Shown here: positions 30,961-50,764 of the stretch, in pieces
How the letters are laid out: each line of letters opens with the position of its first letter
Numbering within the stretch: the first letter of the stretch is position 1
Source: an uncultured Verrucomicrobia subdivision 3 bacterium
Lineage (GTDB): Bacteria > Verrucomicrobiota > Verrucomicrobiia > Limisphaerales > UBA8199
Direction of reading: 5' to 3'
DNA: 61,193 nucleotides
Assembly (NCBI GenBank): GCA_903913865.1
Contig: CAIWMU010000171.1
Span: forward strand, 1 to 61,193
Position numbers and translations under genes: made by a program
Notes under the pieces: generated by a model
Seen by the model: the letters and a program-made list of their open reading frames with translations, nothing else
Told to the model about the DNA's origin: nothing
Databases searched by the model: none

Positions 30961-31131
30961 GAATTTGGACCAGTCGCTTTCCCGCGCCAGGCTTGGATGA
31001 GGAACCAGCCGGGGGCGGGGGAGCGGCGGTCCTGAGTTTCTGACATTTTGCATTAATACTGAAAGCCATCGCCCACCGCGATTCGGATGAGGAACCGGTC
31101 GTGGTGGGTGGGTGGTTGCAGGAAAAAAGCC

Positions 31132-33045
31132 ATGGCCAGGCGGACGCAACATTTGACAGTGCGGGTGTTCGGGATGCTCCTGATCAGCGCCTTTATGGTG
31201 CTGGCTTTGCGTCTTATCGATTTGCAGCTGCTCCGCCACGAAGAACTTCGTGGCGAGGCGGAGCTGAACACCCACAAGCAGTATTACCGGCAGCCCTGCC
31301 GGGGGGACATTGTCGACACCAAGGGAATCATTCTGGCGAGCAGCACCCCGGTTAAAACCGTTTCAGCAGATCCCCGGATGATGTTCGGCAAGGAGGCGGA
31401 ACTCGCCCGGCTCATCGCCCCCTGGCTTCAGGAGGAGGAAGGGGTGATCCTTCAGAAGTTGTCCACCAAGACCCGTCCAACCATGGCCGGGACGGTCGTG
31501 ACGAACAAAACAGTGGTCTTGAAGAAGAAGGTTCCGGTGCAAACCTGGCTGCGTCTCAATGCCGCTTTCAAGACCAACCTGTTCGGGTATTCGTGCACGA
31601 CGAACCGCAACAGGAAGGTTCTGTTCCCAAAGAATCTGAGGGAACTGTGGGCTTCAGCCCTGAGTGCGACCGATGACCAGCTGCGGGTCTACCCGCAGAA
31701 GGATCTGGCCGCACATGTTCTTGGCTTTACAGGAGAATCCACTGAACCCGGTGGACAGATCACCGGTCGGGAGGGGGTGGAACTGACTTTCAACGAGCAA
31801 CTCAGCGGCAGGCGGGGTTGGCGGCGCACTGAAACCGACAGCCACAAGCGGGAGCAGGTAACCCTCCGTGATCAGAATGTTGATCCGCAGGATGGATGTA
31901 ACGTGGTGCTCACAATCGATTCTGTTCTGCAGCACTATCTCTCCGACGCTCTGGCCGAGGCGATGACGAAAAACTCCCCGATCAGCGCCTCCGGGATCAT
32001 CGTCCGGCCGAAAACAGGCGAAATTCTGGCGATGGCGACCATTCCCGATTTCGACCCGAACAGTCCCGGCAACTCCGCTGATCACCGCCGGAACCGGGTC
32101 ATTACCGATATCGCCGAGCCGGGATCCACCTTCAAGATCGTGGTGGTTTCCGCCGCATTGAACGAGAATCTGGTCAGTTTGAAGGATGTTTTTGATTGTG
32201 AACATGGCCGCTTTTTCTTCGGGGGCCATGTTTTGCACGACCACGAATCCTACGATGCGCTGAGCGTTGAGAGCATCATTACGAAATCCTCGAACATCGG
32301 AGCGGCCAAGATAGGGATCAAGCTGGGAGAGCAACGGTTGCATGACTACATGAAGGCGTTCGGTTTCGGGAGTCTGACGGAGATCCCACTCCCGGGCGAA
32401 GTCAGTGCCCGCCAGTTTGTTCAGCCGGTCAAGAACTGGAGCAAGGTCTCCATTGCACAGATTCCGATGGGGCACGGGATTGCCGTGACACGGTTGCAGA
32501 TGGTGATGGCGATGTGCGCGATTGCGAACAAGGGGGTGTTGATGCGGCCGATGCTGGTTGACCGGCTGGTTGCCCACGATGGGCAGGTTGAGGCGCGTTA
32601 TGCGCCCAGGCAGGTGCGGCGGGTGATCGGCGAGACTGCCGCGAAGCATATGGTGGAGGCATTGAAGACGGTTGTGACGCCAAAGGGAACCGCTCCCCAG
32701 GCGGCGATGGAGCATTACGTGGTGGCGGGAAAAACCGGCACCGCACAGAAAGCTGAGAATGGTGTGTATGTGCGCGGAAAGTATCTGGCCTCCTTCATAG
32801 GGTTCTTCCCGGCGGATGACCCTGAATTGTGTATTTCCATCGTTCTGGATGAGCCAAAGAACGGCTACTATGGAGGCAAGACTGCAGCGCCGGTTTTCAA
32901 GCAGGTTGCCGAGCTCGCGGCGAACCATCTGAACATCCGGCCTGACATTGAGACGCCGCCAATTGGGGAGCAGGCGGATGGGAAAGCTCCCAAGACAGCG
33001 GTCGTGCGTGCGGGCTTGCAGGGGGGCAAAGCTCCGACGGATTGA
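31132..33045 (+). CDS. ftsI: Peptidoglycan transpeptidase FtsI (penicillin-binding protein)
   Basis: Septal class B PBP of 637 residues. It has an N-terminal transmembrane helix (about residues 11-33) and a pedestal domain. The transpeptidase motifs are Ser332 in EPGSTFKIV (SXXK), SSN at 386-388 (SXN) and KTGT at 534-537. I chose the ATG at 31132, preceded by AGGAAAAAAG, over the in-frame ATG at 31087. It cross-links septal peptidoglycan with FtsW. There is no PASTA domain in the C-terminal tail. Confidence 0.93.
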   Translation: MARRTQHLTVRVFGMLLISAFMVLALRLIDLQLLRHEELRGEAELNTHKQYYRQPCRGDIVDTKGIILASSTPVKTVSADPRMMFGKEAELARLIAPWLQEEEGVILQKLSTKTRPTMAGTVVTNKTVVLKKKVPVQTWLRLNAAFKTNLFGYSCTTNRNRKVLFPKNLRELWASALSATDDQLRVYPQKDLAAHVLGFTGESTEPGGQITGREGVELTFNEQLSGRRGWRRTETDSHKREQVTLRDQNVDPQDGCNVVLTIDSVLQHYLSDALAEAMTKNSPISASGIIVRPKTGEILAMATIPDFDPNSPGNSADHRRNRVITDIAEPGSTFKIVVVSAALNENLVSLKDVFDCEHGRFFFGGHVLHDHESYDALSVESIITKSSNIGAAKIGIKLGEQRLHDYMKAFGFGSLTEIPLPGEVSARQFVQPVKNWSKVSIAQIPMGHGIAVTRLQMVMAMCAIANKGVLMRPMLVDRLVAHDGQVEARYAPRQVRRVIGETAAKHMVEALKTVVTPKGTAPQAAMEHYVVAGKTGTAQKAENGVYVRGKYLASFIGFFPADDPELCISIVLDEPKNGYYGGKTAAPVFKQVAELAANHLNIRPDIETPPIGEQADGKAPKTAVVRAGLQGGKAPTD

Positions 33046-37143: not shown

Positions 37144-37995
37144 ATGAATAATCAAACTCCATCCCAAACTCCGGAGTCGCCGCTGACCCAGAAAAGTCAG
37201 GGCCGTACCCGGGTCAAACTAGCCATTTTTTGCGTGCTCGCCATACACTGTGTGGTGCTGCTCACACTCCTGATGCAGGCAGGCTGCAAGGACAAGGAGC
37301 CCGTCGCTCCCCCTGTGGACATGACGACCACTCCGCCCCCCCAGTTTGATCCCTACTCCAGCACCAATCCTCCCAATGCCGACACCAATCGTGGGCAGGG
37401 AAGTATTGATACCAACCTGCCCCCACAGAACTACCAACCTCCGCAGGTGGATCCTGTCCCTCCCCCCCAGCCGCCGACACCGCCGGTTTCCACCGGTGGC
37501 ACGGAATACAAGATCGTGAAGGGTGACAACTTCAGCACGATCGCCAAAAAGCATGGCATTTCCGTCCGTGCGCTGAGCGAGGCCAATCCGAATGTGAATT
37601 CGTCCAAGCTGAAGATTGATCAGAAGATTCAGATTCCGGCTTCAACCAAAGCCGTGGCTCCTGCTGCGGATGCTCCGGCGCCTGCAGGGACCGCGACGCC
37701 GACAGCAACGGCTGAACCGGCCCGTGCAAGTGCCAAGGCTTACACCGTCAAGTCGGGGGATACCCTGACCAAGATCGCCCATCACTTCGGAGTCACTGTT
37801 TCCGCGATGAAAGCGGCGAATGGCCTGAAGACGGAGAAAATCAAGGTTGGGCAGGCCCTGAAAGTGCCCGCCAGGAAGGGTGGAAGTTCTGCCCCGGCAC
37901 CCGCGCCGGTCGCGCCCCTTGCAGAGCCTTCTCCGGCGCCCGTTCCCCCTGTCCCGTCAGCCGCTCCCGCTGGTGCGGCTCCGGCTCGTCCCTGA
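37144..37995 (+). CDS. LysM-domain membrane-anchored protein
   Basis: This 283-residue protein has a cytoplasmic N terminus of about 24 residues, a hydrophobic segment (about 25-43, LAIFCVLAIHCVVLLTLLM) ending near AGC, then a Pro-rich linker. Two LysM domains follow: EYKIVKGDNFSTIAKKHG and the region after it (about 119-162), and AYTVKSGDTLTKIAHHFG onwards (about 198-242). The tail is Ala/Pro-rich. LysM domains bind peptidoglycan glycan chains. Its position between the murD and ftsW homologues is typical of Verrucomicrobiota as far as I recall. The likely role is to tether or localise something at the septal wall. The Cys after the hydrophobic segment could be lipidated. Confidence 0.88.
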   Translation: MNNQTPSQTPESPLTQKSQGRTRVKLAIFCVLAIHCVVLLTLLMQAGCKDKEPVAPPVDMTTTPPPQFDPYSSTNPPNADTNRGQGSIDTNLPPQNYQPPQVDPVPPPQPPTPPVSTGGTEYKIVKGDNFSTIAKKHGISVRALSEANPNVNSSKLKIDQKIQIPASTKAVAPAADAPAPAGTATPTATAEPARASAKAYTVKSGDTLTKIAHHFGVTVSAMKAANGLKTEKIKVGQALKVPARKGGSSAPAPAPVAPLAEPSPAPVPPVPSAAPAGAAPARP

Positions 37996-38060
37996 TCAGG
38001 TCAGGTGGTGAAGCAACGATTGCACATGTGAACAGGGCAGGGTTGATAAGTGGATTGCAG

Positions 38061-38094
38061 GGATGTCCCGGGCTGTTTAATGCCCGGGACATCC
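38061..38094. repeat. Perfect 13-bp hairpin upstream of ftsW
   Basis: GGATGTCCCGGGC (38061-38073) and GCCCGGGACATCC (38082-38094) form a perfect 13-bp stem with an 8-nt loop. It lies 65 nt after the LysM stop and 45 nt before the ftsW ATG. No T-run follows on either strand, so it is not a standard terminator. It could be an mRNA stability or attenuation element, or an operator. Confidence 0.75.
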
Positions 38095-38139
38095 TCTGCC
38101 GGGTGTCCGGTCCAACGGTTTTGTTCGTGGTGTGAAGAT

Positions 38140-39264
38140 ATGAAGATCGCGGTTACAGCCCTGATGTTCTGTGTGGCGTCCCTGCTTTCGCTGGGCATGG
38201 TCATCCTCTACAGCGCCACGATGATGGGCACCTCCCGGCTGATCATCATGCAGTTGATCTGGGCCGGTATCGGCCTTGTGGCCTGCATCATCCTTGCAGC
38301 CATGGATGAGAGGCATTTGAAGAAGCTGGCCATTCCCCTCCTGATAGGTTCCACGATTCTTCTGGGGTTGGTATTTCTGCCCGGGGTCGGGGGATGGACC
38401 AACGGCGCACGGCGCTGGCTGCACTTTGGAGGGGTGAACGTCCAGCCATCCGAACTGGCAAAAATTTCACTCATTCTGGCGGTGGCCTGGTATGGAGACC
38501 GCTACCATCGGCACATGCCGACGTTCCTGCGGGGATTAGCCGTGCCTGGAGTTTTCATTGGCGGGGTGATCGGCCTGATTTTTGTGGAGCCGGATCGGGG
38601 CACATCGATCCTCATGGCTCTGGTGTGCGGAACAATGCTTCTCGTGGGGGGGGTCCGCTGGCGGTTTGTTGTGCCATTTGCCCTCCTTGCCCTCGTTGGG
38701 CTGGCGGCAACTCTGATGCACGATCAGATGAGGCTGACGCGCATCGCCGGATGGCTTGATCCGGAGGCGCACAAGAACGGTGTCGGTTTCCAAGCCTATC
38801 AAGGCATGCTGGCCCTCGGCTCGGGTGGTTTGTCCGGGCTGGGCTTGGGGAACGGAAGACAGAAGCTCGGTTTCATACCTGAGCACCATACGGATTTTAT
38901 TCTTGCTGTTGTGGGTGAGGAGTTGGGGCTGATCGCAACGTTGCTGGTGGTTGCTGCCTACGTGGTGATCATCCTTTGTGGCCTATACATTACAATGCGG
39001 TCCCACACTCCGTTCGGGCTGATTTTGGGGACGGGGCTGACCTTTTTGATCGGATTTCAGGCATTCATCAACATTGGGGTTGTGACGAGCACCCTGCCCA
39101 ACAAGGGGTTGCCACTTCCATTTGTGAGTTACGGGGGATCGAGCCTCCTGATGATGCTTGCGGCCGTGGGTCTTCTGCTGGGTCTCGCACGACAGTCCCG
39201 GGCACCGGAAGCCGTGCGGGAGGATCACTCCGGCTCGGATGTGTTTGCTCCTCAACTGTCATGA
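38140..39264 (+). CDS. ftsW: Septal peptidoglycan polymerase FtsW
   Basis: SEDS-family glycosyltransferase of 374 residues with about ten transmembrane helices. It polymerises lipid II with FtsI. Family blocks are VILYSATMMG, GARRWLHFGGVNVQPSELAK, FVEPDRGTSILM, PEHHTDFILAVVGEELGL and NKGLPLPFVSYGGSSLL. I chose the ATG at 38140; a longer in-frame start would translate the hairpin at 38061-38094. The TGA overlaps the murG ATG (ATGA). Confidence 0.95.
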   Translation: MKIAVTALMFCVASLLSLGMVILYSATMMGTSRLIIMQLIWAGIGLVACIILAAMDERHLKKLAIPLLIGSTILLGLVFLPGVGGWTNGARRWLHFGGVNVQPSELAKISLILAVAWYGDRYHRHMPTFLRGLAVPGVFIGGVIGLIFVEPDRGTSILMALVCGTMLLVGGVRWRFVVPFALLALVGLAATLMHDQMRLTRIAGWLDPEAHKNGVGFQAYQGMLALGSGGLSGLGLGNGRQKLGFIPEHHTDFILAVVGEELGLIATLLVVAAYVVIILCGLYITMRSHTPFGLILGTGLTFLIGFQAFINIGVVTSTLPNKGLPLPFVSYGGSSLLMMLAAVGLLLGLARQSRAPEAVREDHSGSDVFAPQLS

Positions 39265-40430
39265 TGCAAACCAGCAAACATCTCGTGGCGATTGCCTGTG
39301 GTGGCACAGGCGGGCACCTGTTTCCCGGACTTGCTGTCGGGGTTCAGCTGCAGCGGCGCGGCTGTGATGTGATGCTGATGGTGTCCCCGAAGGAAGTGGA
39401 CCAGATTGCGGCCAGGGAGGCTGTGGGAATGGAACTTGTGACCCTTCCCGCCATCGGTTTGGTGCGCGGGGGCGGGTTTGCTTTTGCCCGTGGGTTTGCC
39501 CGTTCCTATCGTTCCGCGTGCCGGGCTTTTAAGGGACGTCCGTTGAAGGCGGTTCTTGCGATGGGCGGATTTACCAGTGCCGCTCCTCTGGTTGCCGGGC
39601 GGTTGCGTGGGACCGCTTGTTTTCTGCATGAGTCAAACACCATACCCGGCAGGGCAAACCGGTGGCTTTCCCGGCTGGTGCAGGGGGCGTTTGTAGGATT
39701 TCCGCAGGCGGGTCGGTTGCTCCACGCCCGCCAGGTGGTGGCTTCGGGAACTCCTGTGAGGCCACAGTTCCAGCCTGTTTCGGCGGGGGAATGCCGGCGG
39801 GAACTCGGGTTGGATCCTGCCCGTCCGGTGGTTCTGGTGGTGGGGGGAAGCCAGGGAGCCTCCGGGGTGAACAATCTGGTGATGGAGTCACTGCCGGAGT
39901 TGGTTCGTCTTCATCCCGAGTTGCAGTTTTTGCACCTGACGGGAAGTCAGGACCGGGACCGGGTTGCGGGGGGCTATCAGCGCCATTCCGCGCGTGCGGT
40001 GGTGCATCCTTTTCTGGCGGGAATGCATGTGGCCCTTGGGGCTGCGAGCGTGGCGGTCAGCCGGGCAGGGGCATCCTCGATGGCTGAAATCGCCGCGATG
40101 CAGGTTCCGGCGATTCTGGTGCCCTATCCGGCTGCCACAGACAATCACCAATTGCACAACGCGCGGGCTTTTGAAAGCACCGGGGCTGCCCGGACGATTG
40201 AGCAGGGGGCTGCTTCAGGGCCTTTGCTGGCCAACTGGATTTGGGAACTGATCGAGGACGGAGAGGCCCGGACCCGGATGCAGACTGCGCTCGGCAGATG
40301 GCATCGGGCCGAGGCGGCGGAGTTGATTGCGGAAGGAATTTTGGGCCGTGAAAATCCCGGTGTTTGTCAGCCCTCAGAGGGGGCGTCAAGTTCCGGAGCC
40401 GGGCGAACCTGCGTGACGATCTCCGCATGA
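39261..40430 (+). CDS. murG: Lipid II synthase (GlcNAc transferase) MurG
   Basis: MurG adds GlcNAc to lipid I at the inner membrane face. GGTGGHLFPGLAV, the HESNTIPGRANR block, VVGGSQGAS and SRAGASSMAEIAAMQVPAIL are the family motifs. At 389 residues it carries about 27 extra C-terminal residues (ENPGVCQPSEGASSSGAGRT onwards) that look unlike MurG. murB begins at the overlapping ATGA. In many bacteria murC stands here between murG and murB; it is missing. Confidence 0.93.
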   Translation: MMQTSKHLVAIACGGTGGHLFPGLAVGVQLQRRGCDVMLMVSPKEVDQIAAREAVGMELVTLPAIGLVRGGGFAFARGFARSYRSACRAFKGRPLKAVLAMGGFTSAAPLVAGRLRGTACFLHESNTIPGRANRWLSRLVQGAFVGFPQAGRLLHARQVVASGTPVRPQFQPVSAGECRRELGLDPARPVVLVVGGSQGASGVNNLVMESLPELVRLHPELQFLHLTGSQDRDRVAGGYQRHSARAVVHPFLAGMHVALGAASVAVSRAGASSMAEIAAMQVPAILVPYPAATDNHQLHNARAFESTGAARTIEQGAASGPLLANWIWELIEDGEARTRMQTALGRWHRAEAAELIAEGILGRENPGVCQPSEGASSSGAGRTCVTISA

Positions 40431-41347
40431 GCACCATTCCCACAGAGACCAATTTGGACAAGCTGGGAGTGAGACTCTCGGCGGGGAGTGTTGTCCGGAC
40501 AGGAGAGCCTCTGGCCCGGCATACCACCCTGCGGGTGGGTGGTCCTGCCGAACTGTATGTGGAACCGGCTCTGGAATCGGATCTGGCCGAGACGCTCCGC
40601 TACTGCGTTGAGACGGCACAGCCGTTTTTCCTGCTGGGGCGTGGTTCCAACCTGCTTGTGCGGGATGGCGGAGTGCGCGGAGTGGTGATCTGCCTGAGCC
40701 GGCCCCACTTCAGCAGGGTGGAGGTGGTGGATGGCGGGCTCCAATGTGGTGCCGGTGCCCGTTTGAAGCGGGTGGCAGCAGTGGCACGCCAGGAGGGAAT
40801 GGCCGGATTTGAGTTTTTGGAGGGGATTCCCGGCAGCATTGGCGGCGCGCTGAGGATGAATGCGGGTGCGATGGGATGGGCTGCGTTTGATCTGGTGGCG
40901 CGGGTGAGGATCATGGAGACGTCCGGGGATGTTGTGGAACTGGACCGCTCGGAGATGGATGTCGCCTACCGGAGTTGCGCCAGTTTGAAGGGACGCGTTG
41001 TCCTTTCGGTGCTATTGCGGGGGGAAGCCGGGGATCCGGAGAAGATCGCAAGCCGGATGCGGGAGTTCGAAGCGAAGCGGAAGTCATCACAGCCGACCGC
41101 GCCCAGTGCAGGGTGCATGTTCAAGAATCCCGCCACCGTTCCTGCGGGGCGGTTGATTGATGAACTCGGTCTGAAGGGGACCTGCGTGGGGGCCGCGCGG
41201 GTCTCTGAAAAGCATGGAAATTTTCTGGTGAACGACGGTGGGGCTACGGCTGCGGATGTGCTCGGGCTCATCGAACTGATCCGGGATAGGGCACGCCGTG
41301 AGCGTGGGATTGAACTTGAAACGGAAGTTCAGATAATTGGCCAATGA
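40427..41347 (+). CDS. murB: UDP-N-acetylenolpyruvoylglucosamine reductase
   Basis: FAD-dependent reductase making UDP-MurNAc. Family blocks are HTTLRVGGPAELYVEP, GRGSNLLVRDGGVRGVVI, GIPGSIGGALRMNAGAMG and AGCMFKNP; the proton-donor position is Cys, seen in some MurB. VSEKHGNFLVNDGGATA marks the type II subfamily. Length 306 residues from the ATG at 40427. It overlaps murG and ddl by 4 nt each. Confidence 0.95.
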   Translation: MSTIPTETNLDKLGVRLSAGSVVRTGEPLARHTTLRVGGPAELYVEPALESDLAETLRYCVETAQPFFLLGRGSNLLVRDGGVRGVVICLSRPHFSRVEVVDGGLQCGAGARLKRVAAVARQEGMAGFEFLEGIPGSIGGALRMNAGAMGWAAFDLVARVRIMETSGDVVELDRSEMDVAYRSCASLKGRVVLSVLLRGEAGDPEKIASRMREFEAKRKSSQPTAPSAGCMFKNPATVPAGRLIDELGLKGTCVGAARVSEKHGNFLVNDGGATAADVLGLIELIRDRARRERGIELETEVQIIGQ

Positions 41348-42258
41348 TCCTTAAACGCAAACATCATATCACAGTCATGCTTGGGGGCCCCAGCGCGGAG
41401 CGCGAGGTGTCGCTCCGGTCCGGTGCCGCAGTGGCCAGGGCGCTGCGCGCCGTGGGGCATGAGGTGAGCGAACTCGATCCGAACCCCCGGGGGTGGGAAC
41501 TTGCCGCCGGAACGGAGGTCGTGTTTTTGGCCCTCCACGGCACCTATGGCGAGGATGGGACCGTGCAAAAGCGTCTGGAGGAGTTGGGGATGAAATATAC
41601 CGGCTGCGGCACGGAGGCGAGCCGTGTGGGTTTCGACAAACATCTGACAAAACAGCGGATGATTGCAGCCGGGGTGCCCACCCCCAGATCGGTCCTGGTG
41701 GAATCCATTGCCGCAAGCTGGCCGATGGGCTGGAATCCGCCCGTGGTGCTGAAGCCGGTGAGGCAGGGGTCCAGCGTGGGACTTCAATTTGTGGACCGGG
41801 TGGCAGACTGGAGCCGGGCGGTGACGGAGGCGATGCGCTACGATGATCAGTTGCTGGTCGAGGAGCGCATCTGTGGAAAGGAAACCACCGTGGGCATTCT
41901 GGGTGGACGCCCCCTCCCGCTGGTTGAGGTGCGTCCCCGCACCGGCGTTTACGATTACGAGAACAAGTATACCCCGGGATCGACGGAATACCTCTGTCCG
42001 GCCCCGCTCCCGGAGGCTGTGACGGTAAGGGTGCAGGAGGCTGCCCTGGCGGCCTTCAATTCGATTGGCGGGCGGGATTACGGCCGGGTGGATGTGATGA
42101 TCAACGCTGCCGGGGATCCGTTTGTGCTGGAGATCAATACCCTGCCGGGGATGACGGAGACGAGCCTGTTGCCCAAGGCGGCGGCGGCGGCAGGCATTGG
42201 ATACGCGGACCTTTGCGAATTGATGGTGGAACTTGCGCTAAAGAGGGAAGGCATTTGA
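41344..42258 (+). CDS. ddl: D-alanine-D-alanine ligase
   Basis: ATP-grasp enzyme of 304 residues making D-Ala-D-Ala for MurF. Blocks present are VMLGGPSAEREVSLRSG, LALHGTYGEDGTVQKRLEEL, PVVLKPVRQGSSVGLQFV and FVLEINTLPGMTETSLLPKA. Its ATG overlaps the murB TGA. Confidence 0.95.
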   Translation: MILKRKHHITVMLGGPSAEREVSLRSGAAVARALRAVGHEVSELDPNPRGWELAAGTEVVFLALHGTYGEDGTVQKRLEELGMKYTGCGTEASRVGFDKHLTKQRMIAAGVPTPRSVLVESIAASWPMGWNPPVVLKPVRQGSSVGLQFVDRVADWSRAVTEAMRYDDQLLVEERICGKETTVGILGGRPLPLVEVRPRTGVYDYENKYTPGSTEYLCPAPLPEAVTVRVQEAALAAFNSIGGRDYGRVDVMINAAGDPFVLEINTLPGMTETSLLPKAAAAAGIGYADLCELMVELALKREGI

Positions 42259-42264
42259 GAAGCA

Positions 42265-43230
42265 ATGTTGTGGTTTGGAACTAAAACGAAGAATCGCAGG
42301 TTTTCCCGGGGGCATGTCCTCGATGTGAAGCTGCGGAGTGGGCAGGTGCGCTCCACGCGGATGCGTTTCGTGGCACTCTGCCTTGGGGGGCTTTTTGCCA
42401 CGGTGGCCGGGGCCTACGGGCTCTGGATGACAGGGGAATACGCTCTGCGCGAGCTGGTTTATCGCAATCAGGCTTTTGAGATTCGCGAGGTGGATGTGCA
42501 GACCGACGGGATCCTTGCCATCGACCATTTGCGCCGTCGCTGCGACGTGAAGGAGGGGGAGAATTTGATGGCATTGGACCTGTCCCGTGTGAAACGGGAA
42601 CTCGAGTTGATGCCGGTTGTGGAAACGGCATCGGTTGAGCGGATTCTTCCGCACACGCTCCGGATTCAGGTGACCGAGCGTGAGCCCTTGGTCCAGGTCG
42701 TCGTGCCGCGGCCCAGACAGGGAGGCGGGGTGGGGCTTGTTTCCTATCATCTGGATGCCGAGGGGAACGCCATGCTTCCGCTGGAACCGAACCAGCGCAC
42801 CATCTCCGCCGCGCAATCCGGGGAGGCGCAACTACCGACGCTCTCGGGGCTGAATGCGGCCGAATTACAGGCCGGGCGGCGGTTGACCTGTCCGCAGGTG
42901 CAGGCTGCCCTCAGATTGGTGACAGCTTTTGAGCAGTCCCCCATGGCCGGGGTGGTGGAGTTGAAGCGGATTGATCTTTCCGCCGCAGATGTTCTGCACG
43001 CCACAACCGCCGAGGGCGGGGAGGTCATTTTTGGGAATATAAACCCGGAATTGCAGCTGCGCCGCTGGCGGGAGATTCACGATGCGGGGCTCCGCATGAA
43101 CAAGGCGGTTGCAGCGGTCGATCTGGCGGTCAGCAACAGCATCCCGGTGCGATGGCAGGAGGCAACGAACTCCCTGCCGGTCACACCAAAAATTCGGAAA
43201 ACAACCCGCAACAGGAAAAAGAATGTTTGA
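42265..43230 (+). CDS. ftsQ: Division protein FtsQ, POTRA domain
   Basis: This 321-residue protein has a short cytoplasmic part and one membrane helix (about residues 35-57, VALCLGGLFATVAGAYGLW). A POTRA domain follows (FEIREVDVQTDGILAIDHLR) and an FtsQ beta domain (MPVVETASVERILPHTLRIQ). FtsQ links FtsL/FtsB to the rest of the divisome. It overlaps the ftsA start by 8 nt. Sequence conservation is low outside POTRA, so the name also rests on the ddl-ftsQ-ftsA order. Confidence 0.88.
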   Translation: MLWFGTKTKNRRFSRGHVLDVKLRSGQVRSTRMRFVALCLGGLFATVAGAYGLWMTGEYALRELVYRNQAFEIREVDVQTDGILAIDHLRRRCDVKEGENLMALDLSRVKRELELMPVVETASVERILPHTLRIQVTEREPLVQVVVPRPRQGGGVGLVSYHLDAEGNAMLPLEPNQRTISAAQSGEAQLPTLSGLNAAELQAGRRLTCPQVQAALRLVTAFEQSPMAGVVELKRIDLSAADVLHATTAEGGEVIFGNINPELQLRRWREIHDAGLRMNKAVAAVDLAVSNSIPVRWQEATNSLPVTPKIRKTTRNRKKNV

Positions 43231-44440
43231 TCCAACATCAATCATAGTGGGCTTGGAAGTCGGCACCAGCAAGGTGTGTGCGGCCGTCGGAGACGTGAGT
43301 CGGCAGGATGGAGCGTTGTCCATCATTGGCCTGGGGCAGTCTCCCTCCCGGGGGGTGAAAAAGGGGGAGATCATCGATGCCGAAGCGGCGGAGGAATGCA
43401 TTCGCAAAGCCATTGCCGAAGCGGAGAAGATGGCGGATGTCGAGATCCGGAATGTCTATCTGGGGGTGACAGGGGGGCACATGCGTGGCTTCAACAATCG
43501 CGGGGTGCATCCCATTGTTTCGGCCGACCGGGAGATTGCCGATGAGGATGTGAAAGCTGCCATCAAGAACGCGAAGGCGATCAATGTGCCGGCCCAGAAT
43601 CAGGTCATCTGTGCGATCCGCCAGCACTTTACAGTGGAGGGTCAGGATGGGATCACCAATCCCGTGGGCATGCTGGGATCCCGGCTGGAGGTGGATGTGC
43701 ATGTGCTGCACGGGAACCTGAACCGCCTGCAGAATGCAATCCGCACCGTCAAGGGGTTGCAACTGGAGGTGGATGACATTGTGTTCAACGGTCTGGCTTC
43801 GTCTCTTGCGGTGCTCCATAGTGACCAGAAGGAGATGGGTTCTCTGGTGATAGACATGGGTGCCGGCACAACTGAATTTGTCCTTTATGCCAACGGGATC
43901 ATCAAGCATACAGGGATCCTGGCTGTCGGCGGATGCCATGTCACAAACGACCTTGCCTACGGTCTGAAGCTCCGCACAAGCCGTGCTGAGAAAGTGAAGC
44001 TCGATCACGGATCCGCCATGGTGGATGAGGATGCCAAGGGGCACTCGGTCACCATTGACGAACTGGGAACTGATTCGCGGAGCCTTAATCTTGAACATCT
44101 GCGGATGATCATGTCAGCCCGTTTGGAGGAGATTTTTCAACTCATTCGTCAGGAACTTGCGCAGGCGGATGTGCTGAAGTTTCTGCGCGCCGGTGTGTTT
44201 CTTTGCGGTGGAGGATCCCGTATTCCGAAGATCACCCAACTGGCGGAGCGGGTCTTCTGCATGCCCGTCTCTGTGACAAAAACCAATTCGATCAGCGGCC
44301 TCAGCACAACGCTCGACCAACCCGAATTTGCCACTGCCATCGGGCTGGTGAAATACGGCAGTTTCCAGGTCCGGCGCAGGCCGGTGGCCCCGCTTCCCCG
44401 GATTCAGGATTTGATTGGGACTCTCTTCAAACGCAGATAA
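43223..44440 (+). CDS. ftsA: Division protein FtsA
   Basis: Actin-fold protein of 405 residues that ties FtsZ to the membrane. The phosphate loops IIVGLEVGTSKVCAAVGD and VIDMGAGTTEFVLY, the 1C domain (VRNVYLGVTGGHMRGFNN-like region near residues 75-95) and LCGGGSRIPKITQLAE are present. The C-terminal end PRIQDLIGTLFKRR could form the amphipathic membrane helix. I chose the ATG at 43223, preceded by AGGAAAAAGA; the longer in-frame start runs through ftsQ in another frame. Confidence 0.92.
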   Translation: MFDPTSIIVGLEVGTSKVCAAVGDVSRQDGALSIIGLGQSPSRGVKKGEIIDAEAAEECIRKAIAEAEKMADVEIRNVYLGVTGGHMRGFNNRGVHPIVSADREIADEDVKAAIKNAKAINVPAQNQVICAIRQHFTVEGQDGITNPVGMLGSRLEVDVHVLHGNLNRLQNAIRTVKGLQLEVDDIVFNGLASSLAVLHSDQKEMGSLVIDMGAGTTEFVLYANGIIKHTGILAVGGCHVTNDLAYGLKLRTSRAEKVKLDHGSAMVDEDAKGHSVTIDELGTDSRSLNLEHLRMIMSARLEEIFQLIRQELAQADVLKFLRAGVFLCGGGSRIPKITQLAERVFCMPVSVTKTNSISGLSTTLDQPEFATAIGLVKYGSFQVRRRPVAPLPRIQDLIGTLFKRR

Positions 44441-44450
44441 GCCTTCGCAA

Positions 44451-45731
44451 ATGCAAACCAACGAGTTTACCCCGCCTGCCGACCCGTCCACGCCGGAGCA
44501 GGCACCCCGCATCAAGATTTTTGGCCTTGGTGGTGCCGGTATCAAAGTGATGGAGCTCCTGAGCGCATCGGAATTTGCCGGAGCGGGCCGGGTTGCCATC
44601 GCAACGGAGGCCGCTTCGCTTGCGGTCACAACGGCTTCCGAGAAACTTTTGCTGGAAACCCGTGAACTGCGGGGGTTGGGCACCGGGGGGGACCCTGAGC
44701 GTGGACGCGTTCTGGCGGAGGAACAGACCGATCAGTTGAGGGCGTTGTGCCAGGATGCGGAGATGATTTTCATCGTAACCGCCCTCGGGGGTGGTGCCGG
44801 GACCGGTATCAGCCCTGTTTTGGCGCGGATTGCCCGGGATTCGGGGGCGCTCGTGCTGGCCTTTGTGATCACACCCTTCAAGTGCGAGGGGTCGCTGCGC
44901 AATCAAATGGCGATGGAGGGTTTGGAGCGGCTGAGAAACAAGTGCGATGGTCTGATCTGCCTCCCCAATGAATGTCTGAGCAAAATGTTAACCTCGCAGA
45001 CGAGTGTGCTCGTGGCCTTTGAAATGGGCAACCGGCTGCTTGCTGACGCCATCCGGGGGATTTGGCGGTTGCTCATACGCAAGGGGCTTATTGAGATCAC
45101 CTTTGCAGATCTTGCCTCAGTGCTTCGGAACCAGCACGCACACTGCATGTTTGCGGTGGCTGAGGCATCCGGCCCCAACCGGGCCGATTTGGCCGTGTCC
45201 CGGCTGTTTGAGCACCCGATGTTACCCGGGGGGGATGCCCTATCCAGAAGCGAAACCGTTCTGGTGAGTTTGACTGCGGGTCCAGATCTTTCGATGGCAG
45301 AACTCAGCACCATCAGCAGCCAGATCACCAGCAGGTGTCCTGCTGCGCGTGTTGTTGTGGGTGCCGCAGTTGGTTCCGATTTTGGGGATTGCCTTGGCGT
45401 CACCATCATCGCCTCCTGTCCGGCGGATGGGGAGGGGGAACAAATTCAAATAGAGAGGATCACCCGGCCCATACAGCAAGCCGTTGAGCCTGTAATCCGT
45501 ATGGTTGAACCTACTCAGCCAATCCCTCTGGAAGCGCCAGCAACCCGCTCCAGTTCAGAGCCGGGAACAGCCAAGCCCGGGTCGCGGACGAAAAAAAGTC
45601 ACTCGCAACTTCAGCAGGGGCAATTGCCCTTGCAGATCGTTTCCAAGGGTGGATTTGGTGAGCCCACGATCCATAGGGGTGAGGATCTGGACATTCCGAC
45701 CTATATCCGCCGCGGTGTTTCTTTGAACTGA
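44451..45731 (+). CDS. ftsZ: Divergent FtsZ tubulin-like division GTPase
   Basis: This 426-residue protein has the FtsZ order: IKIFGLGGAGIKVMELL, the tubulin signature as GGGAGTG (113-119; usual GGGTGTG), and a C-terminal DLDIPTYIRRGVSLN. That last block matches the conserved peptide that binds FtsA and similar partners. The GTP-binding A-V-N-T-D segment reads A-I-A-T-E (49-53). The T7 loop, normally N-x-D-F-A-D, reads E-I-T-F-A-D (215-220), so the Asn and the first Asp, which acts on GTP across the filament interface, are lost while Asp220 is kept. Divergent FtsZ is known in Verrucomicrobiota. Whether this copy hydrolyses GTP is unclear. I chose the ATG at 44451, 10 nt after ftsA. Confidence 0.9.
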   Translation: MQTNEFTPPADPSTPEQAPRIKIFGLGGAGIKVMELLSASEFAGAGRVAIATEAASLAVTTASEKLLLETRELRGLGTGGDPERGRVLAEEQTDQLRALCQDAEMIFIVTALGGGAGTGISPVLARIARDSGALVLAFVITPFKCEGSLRNQMAMEGLERLRNKCDGLICLPNECLSKMLTSQTSVLVAFEMGNRLLADAIRGIWRLLIRKGLIEITFADLASVLRNQHAHCMFAVAEASGPNRADLAVSRLFEHPMLPGGDALSRSETVLVSLTAGPDLSMAELSTISSQITSRCPAARVVVGAAVGSDFGDCLGVTIIASCPADGEGEQIQIERITRPIQQAVEPVIRMVEPTQPIPLEAPATRSSSEPGTAKPGSRTKKSHSQLQQGQLPLQIVSKGGFGEPTIHRGEDLDIPTYIRRGVSLN

Positions 45732-45880
45732 TGCCCGGAGCGGGGGGCCTGTCAGCCCGGGGAGGGATGCCTTTCCGGCTGTCAGGAGTGGTGTCGACAA
45801 GACTGGCTGGAACTGACATAGTGGTCATCGTTCCGGATGATCTAGTTCATGTGGCAGCTTTGCACCCTTGGTCGGACACC

Positions 45881-48800
45881 ATGAAAAAGTCCCTCGCCAT
45901 CCTGCTCGCCCTCGTGGTGTGCCTGGTCTCGTCCCACATGGCCCGGGGAGCTGTCCGGATCAGTGAATTTGCAGCTTCCAACCTCAGGGGCATCAGTGAC
46001 GAGGATGGGAATCACGAGGATTGGATCGAGATATTCAATGATGGTGCGGCTCCGGTTTCGCTCCAGAACTGGTGTCTCACCGACACTCCGATGAGTTTGG
46101 ACAAATGGCGGTTTCCTGCCACCAATATCGGCCCCGGTCAGTTCCTGATCGTGTTCGCATCCGGCAAGGATCGGCGCATCCCGGGGCGGACACTTCACAC
46201 CAACTTCAAGCTGAACTCAGATGGCGACTATCTTGCACTGGTGGAGCCGGACGCCAGGACCGTGGCCACCCAATTTTCCCCCGCCTTCCCGCCGCAGGCG
46301 GTGGATGCGAGTTACGGGTTCCCGATGCAGACTGCCAGGACGGTCCTATCGCAGGGTGCCCCGGTCAAATGGAAGGTCTGGACCACTGCGACGGCTTACG
46401 TTTTGGAATCTTCGGGATGGAAATCAAGCCTCACCTATGCCGCCACGGGGTGGAGCAACGGAACGAGCGGTCTGGGGTGGGATGACACGGCATCCCCGAT
46501 GAGCTTCTCGCCCTGGTTTGGCACCAATTCGAATCCCCGCAGCCTCATGCCAGGCAGCGCACGCGCCCTGTTTTCGCGGTTTTTGTTCAAAGCGACCAAT
46601 GTTGTTGCAGCATCGGAATTGCGGTTGCGGATGCGCTTTGATGACGGGTTTGTCGCATGGTTGAACGGGACGCTCGTGGCCTCCAACCTTGCCCCTGCCG
46701 CCCCCTCGTGGAATTCGGTGTCCACGGGCCTGCGGGATGATGTGCTCAACGGGGCCTGGGCGACCTTCCCGATGCCTTTGGCCTCGCTGGTTGAGGGGAC
46801 GAACCTCCTGGCCATCCAGGTCTTCAACACCAGCGCCCCGGACACCAGCGACCTGCTGCTGCTGCCGGAGGTGGACCTGATGTTTCCGGGGGCATCGGAC
46901 ATCCCGGCCTACTTTTCCCCGAGCACCCCGGGAAAGACCAACAGCAGCGGGACAGTCGCGCTGGCTCCGGGAGTTGAAATGCTTTCAAGTGTGGCACGGC
47001 CTCCCGGGGGAGCGGGGAGTCCACCGCTCACCATTACTGCCCTGGTGTCGCGGACAGTCCATGCCATCACGAATGTGACGCTGTTCCACCGCACCATGTT
47101 TGGCACCGACTCCGTGGTGGGCATGGTTCCGGGAACGGGGGGTGTATGGACCGCATCCATTCCCACGACCGCCCTGGGCCCGGGACAGATGTTGCGTTGG
47201 CGGATCGAGGCGCGGGATGCGGCCGGGAATATCGGCACGGGCCCCCCTTTCGTGGCCGCGAATGATGATGACCGTTATTATGGGACGGTCGCACTGAATC
47301 CGGCTGAACTGGACAGCCGCCTGCCCATCGTTCACTGGTTTGTTCAGGACTATGCTGCGGCGGCAAGCGAGACCGGAGGGCGGTCATCCTGCTACTTCCT
47401 CAACCATTTCTACGACAACCTCCTCGTCAAGCTGCATGGTCAGTCCACATCCGGTTTCCCGAAGAAGGGACATGATTTTGATTTCAATGCTGGAAACCGT
47501 TTCATCTGGCGGGAGGGGGAGAAGGGGGAGAAAGATGTGAATCTCCTCACCAACTGGGGGGACAAAAGCAAGGTTCGTAATACGCTGGCGTATGAGATGT
47601 TGAACCGGTCGGGGGTGCTGTCCCACTGGGCGTTTCCGGTGCGGGTCCAGACCAACGGCGGGTTCCACGCCGTGCTGGACATGGTTGAGGATGGGGATGA
47701 TTGTTTTACCGAAAGGGTGGGGCTGGATCCCCGTGGCGCCCTCTACAAGGTTTATACTGCGGCATATACAGGCGGCGTGACGGGAACCAACATCTGGGTG
47801 GCTGAAAAGAAGGCCCGCAAGGATGAGGGCAGCTCGGACCTCGCCGCATTCAGTGCCGGAATTGCAGCGAACTGGTCCCTCGCCCAGCGCCGGGCCTTTG
47901 TGTATGACAACGTCGATCTGGGTGCGACCATCAATTATCTGGCCTCCATCGTGCTGAGTGGATGCCATGATCAGGGTCACAAAAATTTTTACCTGTATCG
48001 GGACAGCGATGGAACCCGGCTGTGGCGGGTGCTTCCATGGGACGTCGATTTGACCTTCGGCCACGAGTGGTTCCAGGGGCCCGCCTATTTTGAGGACAAC
48101 ATCTACTTTGACCAGCCGCTCCAGCTGGGGGTGATCAACACCCTGAAGGAGATCATTTTCGGCAGTGCTGAGTTGAACCAGATGTTTCTGCGCCGCCTGC
48201 GGACCCTCATGGACAATGTTCTTCAGCCCGGGACGACCCCTTTGAGCCTGCGCACCAATGAAAACCGGGTGGCGGAGTTGCTGGATCTGATCGATCCCCC
48301 GGGAGTGGCCACAACGGATGCGCGGCTTGATTTCGCGAAATGGGGATGGTGGACGAACGGGACGCAGATCATTAGTTCAAATGCCTCGCAGGAGATCCGC
48401 GCGCAGGCCAGGAGGATCACCTACACGTTCTTTACAGGGCGCAGGGGGTTCCTGCAGGCGGGACAAACCAGCTCCGGGATTGCCATTCCCTCAAGCCAAA
48501 GTGCCGGGATCGGGGTCACTCTGGAAATGGGTGATTATAATCCGGCGGGCGGGTCGCAGGAGCAGGAGTATGTGGTGCTGCGGAACAGAAACTCCGTGGC
48601 AGTGGATGTCAGCGGGTGGAAATTGTCGGGCCAAATCGGGTATGAGTTTCCCCCCGGGACGGTCATTCCCTCCGGTGGGGGAATCACCGGAAACATCGGA
48701 TTGCTGTTCGTGGCCCGGAATCCATGGGCGTTCAGGCAGCGGGCCATCGCGCCGAAGGGCGGCCAGAATTGTCTCCTGGCCGGGCCCTACTCGGGCCAAC

Positions 48801-50764
48801 TTTCAGCCCGGGGAGGCAGTCTGGTGCTGGAGGATGCGGCCCACAGGGTGGTTGCCTCGGTCAGTTATGCGGGAGCCCCCTCCGCCGTGCAGCAGTTTCT
48901 CCGGGTGACGGAATTGATGTTCAATCCATCCCCGCTGGCCGGCTCGACCAACCGGGCTCAGGAGTTTGAGTTCATTGAGTTGCGGAACATCAGCCCGGGT
49001 GTGACGCTGGACCTCAAGGGGGTCCATTTTACGAACGGGCTTACCTTCGCCTTCACCAACACAACGCTTCTTGCCCCCCGGCAGTCGATCGTGATTCCGC
49101 GTAATCCAGCCGCCTTTGTGGAGCGTTACGGAACCGGGTTCAATATCGCGGGGGCGTGTGACGGTTTTCTGGAGGATGGGGGGCAGCGGATCACTTTGCT
49201 GGATTCCGCAAACGAGGAGATTCTGGACTTCACCTATGGCGGGGCTTGGAATCCACTGGCGGACGGCCTTGGTTTTTCGCTGGTGGTGGTGGATGAGCAG
49301 GCCGTGCCGGGGGCGTGGACCCACCCGTCCCAGTGGCGTGCGAGCGCAACGAGGGGGGGATCTCCCGGTCGGGAGGATCCGGTCCCGAACCTCCCACCCA
49401 TCAGAATCAACGAGGTGCTGGCCCACACGGATCCTCCCCAGGTGGACAGCATTGAACTCTACAACCCGACGACCAACAGCGTTGGAATCGGCGGATGGTT
49501 TCTCACCGATGACCCGGCGATCCCGGGAAAGTTCCGCATCCCCGACAACACCCGGATCGGCCCGCTCGGTTATCTCGTGTTTGATGAGCGCCAGTTCAAC
49601 AGCCAGCCCATCGCCACGAACAACTTCCGGATCAGTTCCACCGGTGATGACATCTGGCTCTTCAGCGGGGATGCCTCCACGAACCTGACAGGCCATGCGG
49701 ATGGGGTTGTGTTTGGGGCCTCACCCAACGGCTCCAGCTTTGGTTTCCACACGGCAAGTGATGGCTCCACCCATTTTGTCCTGCAGCGGGGATTGACGCT
49801 GGGGTCTGCCAATGCAGGCCCCCTCGTCGGGCCGATGATCATCCGGTCGATCATGTATCATCCGCCCGACATTGTGTTGAACAACATCGCCGCCGATGAT
49901 GATACCAACGAATATATCGAACTCCTGAACACCGGCACAACCAATGTGGGGCTGTTTCATCCCGAAACCCCGGTCAACACCTGGCGCCTCGCGGAGGGCA
50001 TCAGCTACTCATTTCCCACAAACTGTAATGTGGCTCCAGGCAGCAATCTGCTGGTGGTGGGATTCAGTCCCACGAACACGGTTCTGAGGTCGGCCTTTTA
50101 TTTGCGGTGGCCCTGGGCCACGAACATTCCCCTTTTTGGACCCTGGTTTGGAAAACTGGACAACAGTGCCGAAACGGTCTGCCTGCAACGTCCCGACACC
50201 ACGAACCTGGACGGGACCGTGCCGTTCATCACGGTGGAGCAGGTTCAATACAAGGATGAGGCGCCCTGGCCATTGGGGGCGGATGGTTGGGGTGCATTCC
50301 TCCAGCGAAACGCCCATGGCGGTTTCGCGGATGATCCGGGAAACTGGGTGGGGCTTCCCCCTCCCGGATCGGTGCCTCCCGATCTCGACCGGGATGGCAT
50401 GGAAGATTGGTGGGAAGTGCAGAATGGTCTCAATCCGGCTGTCCAGGACGGTGCGGGGGATCCGGATGGCGATGGGATCACGAATATTGCCGAGTTTTAT
50501 GCGCGGACTGATCCCCGTGATCCCTCGAGCACCTTCCGGCTGCAGGTCTCCCAGAGGGATCATGGGACGGTCCTTCTCCAATTCGAAGGACGGCCACAGT
50601 TATATTATTGGGTGCAAACGAACGGAACCCCGGATGCCACGGGATGGCAGACCTGGCTGCAGATTCCCTCTGCGTTGACGAATCGTACCCTGACGATCAC
50701 AAACACCGGGGGGGAGGGGACGAGGTTCTACCGTCTCCGTGCCGGGATGTCGCAGGTTCCGTGA
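45881..50764 (+). CDS. Giant exported lamin-tail/CotH-kinase protein
   Basis: This 1627-residue protein has a signal peptide (about residues 1-24). Several lamin-tail (LTD) domains follow: about 25-140 (VRISEFAASNLRGI, DWIEIFNDG), 877-995 (YVVLRNRNSVAVDVSGWKL), 1007-1120 (LRVTELMFNP, FIELRNISPG), 1173-1275 (IRINEVLAHTD, DSIELYNPT) and 1320-1450 (YIELLNTGTTN). A CotH kinase domain lies at about 483-850, with the catalytic HDQGHKNF and WRVLPWDVDLTFG motifs and the KLHGQSTSGFPKK loop. A calcium-binding DLDRDGMEDWW/DPDGDGITN repeat is near 1500-1540. The tail TRFYRLR recurs in secreted Verrucomicrobiota proteins. CotH phosphorylates spore-coat proteins in Bacillus; the target here is unknown. Confidence 0.85.
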   Translation: MKKSLAILLALVVCLVSSHMARGAVRISEFAASNLRGISDEDGNHEDWIEIFNDGAAPVSLQNWCLTDTPMSLDKWRFPATNIGPGQFLIVFASGKDRRIPGRTLHTNFKLNSDGDYLALVEPDARTVATQFSPAFPPQAVDASYGFPMQTARTVLSQGAPVKWKVWTTATAYVLESSGWKSSLTYAATGWSNGTSGLGWDDTASPMSFSPWFGTNSNPRSLMPGSARALFSRFLFKATNVVAASELRLRMRFDDGFVAWLNGTLVASNLAPAAPSWNSVSTGLRDDVLNGAWATFPMPLASLVEGTNLLAIQVFNTSAPDTSDLLLLPEVDLMFPGASDIPAYFSPSTPGKTNSSGTVALAPGVEMLSSVARPPGGAGSPPLTITALVSRTVHAITNVTLFHRTMFGTDSVVGMVPGTGGVWTASIPTTALGPGQMLRWRIEARDAAGNIGTGPPFVAANDDDRYYGTVALNPAELDSRLPIVHWFVQDYAAAASETGGRSSCYFLNHFYDNLLVKLHGQSTSGFPKKGHDFDFNAGNRFIWREGEKGEKDVNLLTNWGDKSKVRNTLAYEMLNRSGVLSHWAFPVRVQTNGGFHAVLDMVEDGDDCFTERVGLDPRGALYKVYTAAYTGGVTGTNIWVAEKKARKDEGSSDLAAFSAGIAANWSLAQRRAFVYDNVDLGATINYLASIVLSGCHDQGHKNFYLYRDSDGTRLWRVLPWDVDLTFGHEWFQGPAYFEDNIYFDQPLQLGVINTLKEIIFGSAELNQMFLRRLRTLMDNVLQPGTTPLSLRTNENRVAELLDLIDPPGVATTDARLDFAKWGWWTNGTQIISSNASQEIRAQARRITYTFFTGRRGFLQAGQTSSGIAIPSSQSAGIGVTLEMGDYNPAGGSQEQEYVVLRNRNSVAVDVSGWKLSGQIGYEFPPGTVIPSGGGITGNIGLLFVARNPWAFRQRAIAPKGGQNCLLAGPYSGQLSARGGSLVLEDAAHRVVASVSYAGAPSAVQQFLRVTELMFNPSPLAGSTNRAQEFEFIELRNISPGVTLDLKGVHFTNGLTFAFTNTTLLAPRQSIVIPRNPAAFVERYGTGFNIAGACDGFLEDGGQRITLLDSANEEILDFTYGGAWNPLADGLGFSLVVVDEQAVPGAWTHPSQWRASATRGGSPGREDPVPNLPPIRINEVLAHTDPPQVDSIELYNPTTNSVGIGGWFLTDDPAIPGKFRIPDNTRIGPLGYLVFDERQFNSQPIATNNFRISSTGDDIWLFSGDASTNLTGHADGVVFGASPNGSSFGFHTASDGSTHFVLQRGLTLGSANAGPLVGPMIIRSIMYHPPDIVLNNIAADDDTNEYIELLNTGTTNVGLFHPETPVNTWRLAEGISYSFPTNCNVAPGSNLLVVGFSPTNTVLRSAFYLRWPWATNIPLFGPWFGKLDNSAETVCLQRPDTTNLDGTVPFITVEQVQYKDEAPWPLGADGWGAFLQRNAHGGFADDPGNWVGLPPPGSVPPDLDRDGMEDWWEVQNGLNPAVQDGAGDPDGDGITNIAEFYARTDPRDPSSTFRLQVSQRDHGTVLLQFEGRPQLYYWVQTNGTPDATGWQTWLQIPSALTNRTLTITNTGGEGTRFYRLRAGMSQVP

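Follow-up and report, generated by a model that had tools for sequence, protein, structure and literature searches.

The roles of the FtsZ residues considered here have been described for Staphylococcus aureus, whose residue numbers are the Escherichia coli numbers plus one. In that protein D210 swings and places the catalytic water, D213 and G72 hold this water as well, R143 resembles an arginine finger, a K+ ion is held by N208 and Q48, and a Mg water is held by N44 and D46 (PMC8936486). Assembly is abolished by each of the substitutions D46A, R143Q, N208L, D210N and D213N, and conservation across species has been described for the E. coli positions N207, D209, D212, Q47 and D45, which model bacteria need for FtsZ assembly or function (PMC8936486). 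The substitutions D212A in E. coli and D213A in Bacillus subtilis reduce GTPase or treadmilling speed, and B. subtilis requires treadmilling (PMC8079713). The initial annotation of the DNA studied here had named the first Asp of the T7 loop as the catalytic residue, in agreement with the S. aureus work on D210 (PMC8936486). We use E. coli numbering unless stated otherwise.

Divergence of FtsZ in the Verrucomicrobia, which that annotation had also mentioned, is already published (PMC1845146, PMC9871819, PMC2474590). A 2007 paper called the FtsZ of Verrucomicrobium spinosum canonical from PRINTS motifs (PMC1845146), and a search of its text found no mention of the T7 loop or of a catalytic aspartate. 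The V. spinosum gene is essential by transposon sequencing (PMC12283558). In the literature searched we found no description of a recurrent loss of T7 Asp residues or of the His motif reported below; Pilhofer 2008 may discuss verrucomicrobial and Lentisphaera motifs. An FtsZ-like protein of Nitrosopumilus maritimus that lacks the T7 and GGGTGTG motifs failed to polymerise in yeast, and division in this organism is attributed to Cdv proteins (PMC3684127).

The window is a stretch of 61,193 nucleotides from an uncultured Verrucomicrobia subdivision 3 bacterium (contig CAIWMU010000171.1, assembly GCA_903913865.1). Its ftsZ ORF has a coding part at 44451-45728, followed by a stop up to 45731, and translates to 426 amino acids. 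The tubulin/FtsZ GTPase domain PF00091 was found at 113.2 bits (cut-off 33) and the FtsZ_C domain PF12327 at 49.1 bits (cut-off 27). The NCBIfam ftsZ equivalog model TIGR00065 gave 246.1 bits, below its cut-off of 295.2, so the name FtsZ is given here by descent, fold and locus and not by that model. We built an AF2 model with 38 related sequences, in which residues 20-325 are mostly near pLDDT 90, with the region of the T7 loop somewhat lower. The model has the FtsZ fold: residues 16-325 matched a solved FtsZ with Z 40.9 and an rmsd of 2.3 over 308 residues. Named relatives put the window in the Limisphaerales/Pedosphaera group of subdivision 3, and the nearest of them is the FtsZ of the sister MAG UBA693, which is 64% identical.

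The location next to ftsA in a dcw cluster and the C-terminal partner peptide are also those of an FtsZ (Table 1). Going by sequence and order, the cluster reads rsmH, ftsI, murF, mraY, murD, ftsW, murG, murB, ddl, ftsQ, ahead of ftsA and ftsZ. There is no murC in it, as murG runs into murB (window 39265-41347, L281), and the genome's best MurC-like gene lies on a different contig (G000:C71) with 315 bits, just below the family cut-off of 335. Likewise, no murE was seen between ftsI and murF. A LysM-repeat proline-rich protein is encoded inside the cluster between murD and ftsW (window 37144-37995). Directly behind ftsZ is a very large ORF (window 45731-50764, up to 1677 amino acids, with the true start probably near 45882) that by eye resembles a secreted lamin-tail/CotH-like protein.

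Table 1. Division genes in the window and the motifs of its FtsZ (positions count from the first letter of the window).
Feature	Position	Strand	Basis
ftsI-like (PBP), dcw cluster	31087..33045	+	ORF and sequence; name inferred
ftsW-like, dcw cluster	38050..39264	+	ORF and sequence; name inferred
ddl (D-Ala-D-Ala ligase), dcw cluster	41344..42258	+	ORF and sequence; name inferred
ftsQ-like, dcw cluster	42265..43230	+	ORF and position; name inferred
ftsA, immediately upstream of ftsZ	43223..44440	+	ORF, position
ftsZ, divergent FtsZ, 426 aa	44451..45731	+	PF00091, PF12327, fold match
T2 loop AIATEAASL (canonical AVNTDAQAL): N43A, D45E, Q47A	44595..44621	+	alignment to E. coli FtsZ
T4 glycine loop GGGAGTG (canonical GGGTGTG): T108A	44787..44807	+	alignment to E. 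coli FtsZ
T7 loop EITFAD (canonical NxDFAD): N207E, D209T, D212 kept	45093..45110	+	alignment
C-terminal peptide LDIPTYIRRG, expected FtsA/partner-binding site	45687..45716	+	sequence

The three altered motifs pointed out in the initial annotation (EITFAD, AIATE and GGGAGTG) are all present in the translated ORF and in its alignment to E. coli FtsZ, and the partner peptide that it had reported as kept is intact and near-invariant in A1 and A2. The window protein shares with canonical FtsZ (E. coli, S. aureus) the fold, the P-loop glycines, the guanine and ribose contacts, the partner peptide, the dcw locus and the single copy, and T110, E138, R142, N165, F182, N186 and D212 are unchanged. Among its differences from canonical FtsZ, N24K, N43A, Q47A, T108A, N207E and D209T remove the usual residue and D45E puts a Glu in place of Asp. 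The canonical N-x-D-x-x-D of the T7 loop reads E-I-T-F-A-D, with the second Asp alone kept. In the numbering of the window protein, E215 is E. coli N207, D220 is D212 and R150 is R142. Judged by the aligned residues, the base, ribose and P-loop contacts are mostly conserved, and the catalytic network that faces the neighbouring subunit is mostly altered, apart from the Arg and the second Asp of T7. The annotation had allowed that a nearby Asp might fill the catalytic role, and the alignment supports this by half, in that the equivalent of E. coli D212 and S. aureus D213 is retained. The motifs are not a sequencing oddity, because the sister MAG reads E-I-R-F-A-D, and N-x-D-x-x-D occurs in none of the family members.

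We placed the protein on a FastTree tree of 247 FtsZ sequences from which the diagnostic columns had been left out. It falls in a Verrucomicrobia subdivision 3 clade (support 0.989) whose 67 sampled FtsZs have a T7 loop of the form [QE]-[IV]-H-F-x-[DE], and QVHFAD with its variants is the commonest T7 among named relatives. Position 209 is His in 56/67 members, T108A is common to 48/67, and N207 is kept in none of the 67, while all 67/67 have E138, all 67/67 have R142 and all 67/67 have an acidic residue at 212. On this tree the clade ancestor replaced D209 by His together with N207 by Glu or Gln, and T108 then became Ala. The window FtsZ and its sister later swapped the clade His for Thr (window) and Arg (sister). 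The pattern is not due to chance, because the same positions change repeatedly on the tree and E138 changes once.

We believe, with a probability of roughly 0.6, that the window FtsZ is a working division protein with a rewired active site of one acid and with slower, less K+-dependent hydrolysis. As the sole FtsZ of the cell it would be the working protein of the division ring, use its conserved contacts to base, ribose and P-loop for binding guanine nucleotide, and form head-to-tail filaments. The textbook centre of two Asp and K+ (N207 and D209 from T7; N43, D45 and Q47 from the neighbour) would have been rebuilt at the interface in the order read from the tree, with the His changes of the clade ancestor followed by T108A and the loss of His in the window genus. 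One T7 acid, D220, would then be left facing the conserved R150. Assembly would be expected to depend on GTP, with hydrolysis and turnover slower than in E. coli FtsZ and a weaker dependence on K+. GTP hydrolysis is thus probably retained and perhaps slow. The basis of this reading is sequence, phylogeny, conservation, single copy and the essentiality of a relative that lacks the first Asp.

That relative is V. spinosum, whose FtsZ (L178) has RMGIAD as its T7 loop. We recognised it with a published ftsZ primer (PMC1845146), which gave one hit, in a genome of 8.2 Mb, when 68 genomes of the family were searched. Like the window protein, this FtsZ is missing N207 and the first Asp of T7, and it keeps the second. 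Unlike the window protein, with GGGAGTG and IATE, it has GGGTGSG and a T2 of MHTD; it is also about 650 amino acids long with an essential C-terminal extension (PMC1845146, PMC12283558), and it falls outside the window's clade on the tree. An FtsZ can thus be essential although it is missing the first Asp of T7.

The same evidence could be read as a fully active enzyme, in which E215 and D220 (and the His elsewhere in the clade) place the catalytic water, the GTPase is ordinary, and the changes are compensated neutral drift. The conservation of Glu or Gln at 207 with His at 209 as a clade motif, coordinated with T108A, fits such an enzyme, as do the invariant acid at 212 and R142 in the clade and the essentiality of ftsZ in a relative without the first Asp (PMC12283558). 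However, the His was lost in the window genus, and N208L and D210N abolish assembly in S. aureus (PMC8936486), and we consider full activity unlikely. In close relatives of the window FtsZ, position 209 is T, R, R, H and P, a variation that would fit relaxed constraint there.

Loss of a T7 acid is not confined to this clade. In the order sample, 90 distinct FtsZs had D209 in 43/90, N207 in 38/90 and an acid at 212 in 78/90. Score was part of the selection of the class and phylum samples, so that beyond the order the percentages do not estimate those of the population; in the phylum sample (246 distinct sequences) the FtsZ tree gave 17 losses of D209 and 16 of D212, and an independent FtsA tree gave 20 and 17, with the His group largely coherent. 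The window FtsZ belongs to this phylum-wide pattern of T7 acid loss. Both acids were gone in 3 sequences with an alignable T7 and 3 with an unrecognisable T7, of about 246. A rate test for mutual exclusion of D209 and D212 losses gave p 0.018 and 0.06. Under simulated independent loss, six or fewer double losses had an unconditioned P of ~0.24, or ~0.05 when conditioned on the marginals in 21 runs only, and we regard mutual exclusion as suggestive only.

The Opitutales-like FtsZs (L097-L130) are the mirror image of the window FtsZ, keeping D209 and having lost D212 (NLDFAT). More extreme than the window FtsZ are three FtsZs (L140, L197, L198) with an unrecognisable T7, an altered glycine loop and the peptide LDLPAFLRKG kept; they come from small (2.2-2.5 Mb), near-complete genomes that are probably Methylacidiphilaceae.

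The beta-tubulin subunit has Lys at the E254 position, and an interface of the tubulin family can thus work with one T7 acid absent. Beta-tubulin is like the window protein in this respect, except that it lacks the second acid, as NLDFAT does, and the window protein lacks the first.

The initial annotation had suggested that another tubulin-like protein might replace FtsZ in the ring, and a look through the genome speaks against this. In 6.27 Mb at 95% completeness, the window FtsZ is the one gene with PF00091. No second ftsZ or btubAB was found, the lone PF00091 gene being of the FtsZ type without a tandem BtubA/BtubB pair beside it, and a Tubulin_2 search gave no separate gene. We therefore rejected a second FtsZ, BtubAB or Tubulin_2 as candidates in this genome. 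Of the 97 genomes in the order sample, 92 gave a match above the cut-off, and every one of these had a single FtsZ. In the class sample, extra Btub-like pairs were confined to Prosthecobacter-like genomes. One such genome (G204, L092) has two tandem tubulin-like pairs besides ftsZ, at C9:13234-15407 and C9:234049-236141.

A vestigial ftsZ, with the cell divided by another tubulin-like or an actin-like filament, would agree with the accelerated divergence, and the use of Cdv by N. maritimus is a precedent (PMC3684127). The N. maritimus protein is like the window FtsZ in that its T7 motif and GTP signature are lost. It differs in that no alternative tubulin was found in the window genome, where the remaining pocket is conserved. 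Decay is also at odds with the intact ORF under purifying selection, with the kept partner peptide and dcw synteny, and with the presence of FtsZ in 60/60 good genomes of the order sample. Single copy, clade-wide conservation and the essential ftsZ of V. spinosum make replacement by another tubulin unlikely, and we give decay or replacement very little credence. The window ORF is a real FtsZ in single copy and very probably a functional one.

The FtsZ core compared with its sister had pN 0.18 and pS 0.77 (with dS saturated), which indicates purifying selection on the window ftsZ. In a comparison of FtsZ and FtsA, identity to the sister was 72.5% for FtsZ and 84.5% for FtsA, and the median identity to the window over the order-sample loci (L002-L091) was 41% and 61%; FtsA thus changes slower than FtsZ in the order. 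Compared with their E. coli counterparts, they show nearly the same similarity (37% for FtsZ and 36% for FtsA). The faster divergence of FtsZ than of its partner is one point for a static or nucleotide-locked filament, which would polymerise and recruit FtsA and the wall machinery without hydrolysing GTP, with turnover left to accessory factors or dilution. The loss of the catalytic Asp, N207, Q47, N43 and T108 at one interface would also suit such a filament, as would the absence of ZapA, which we looked for and did not find. On the other side, the second acid, R142 and E138 are fully retained in the clade and loss of both acids is near absent, so that catalysis is apparently selected, and B. 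subtilis needs treadmilling (PMC8079713). We judge a static filament to be improbable. Slow or static filaments had been proposed from the sequence at the outset; the slow form agrees with our reading, and the static form is weakened by the second T7 Asp in its normal aligned place, the acid there in 67/67 and the essential ftsZ of V. spinosum.

For the reading that we prefer, a rewired site with slower hydrolysis, the strict retention of the second Asp and its known role (PMC8079713) suggest that hydrolysis is still selected. Counted against it are the FtsZ of N. maritimus, which did not polymerise in yeast, the modest statistic for mutual exclusion and the variable position 209. In addition, any one of D210N, N208L and D46A is enough to abolish assembly in S. 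aureus, so GTP-driven assembly could be lost when all three positions are changed.

The loss of the first Asp is common to a large clade and to an essential relative, which calls the universality of the textbook mechanism into question. Within a single phylum, D209 or D212 was lost many times from a gene kept in one copy, and in the sole member tested this gene is essential. We only tentatively extend this to a whole verrucomicrobial lineage whose sole FtsZ lacks the textbook T7 Asp and K+ site, and which may have either a new centre of His/Glu and Asp or hydrolysis too weak for the usual turnover of a GTP-powered ring. Natural variants in culturable species (V. spinosum, Prosthecobacter) bear on how much GTP hydrolysis and treadmilling division needs.
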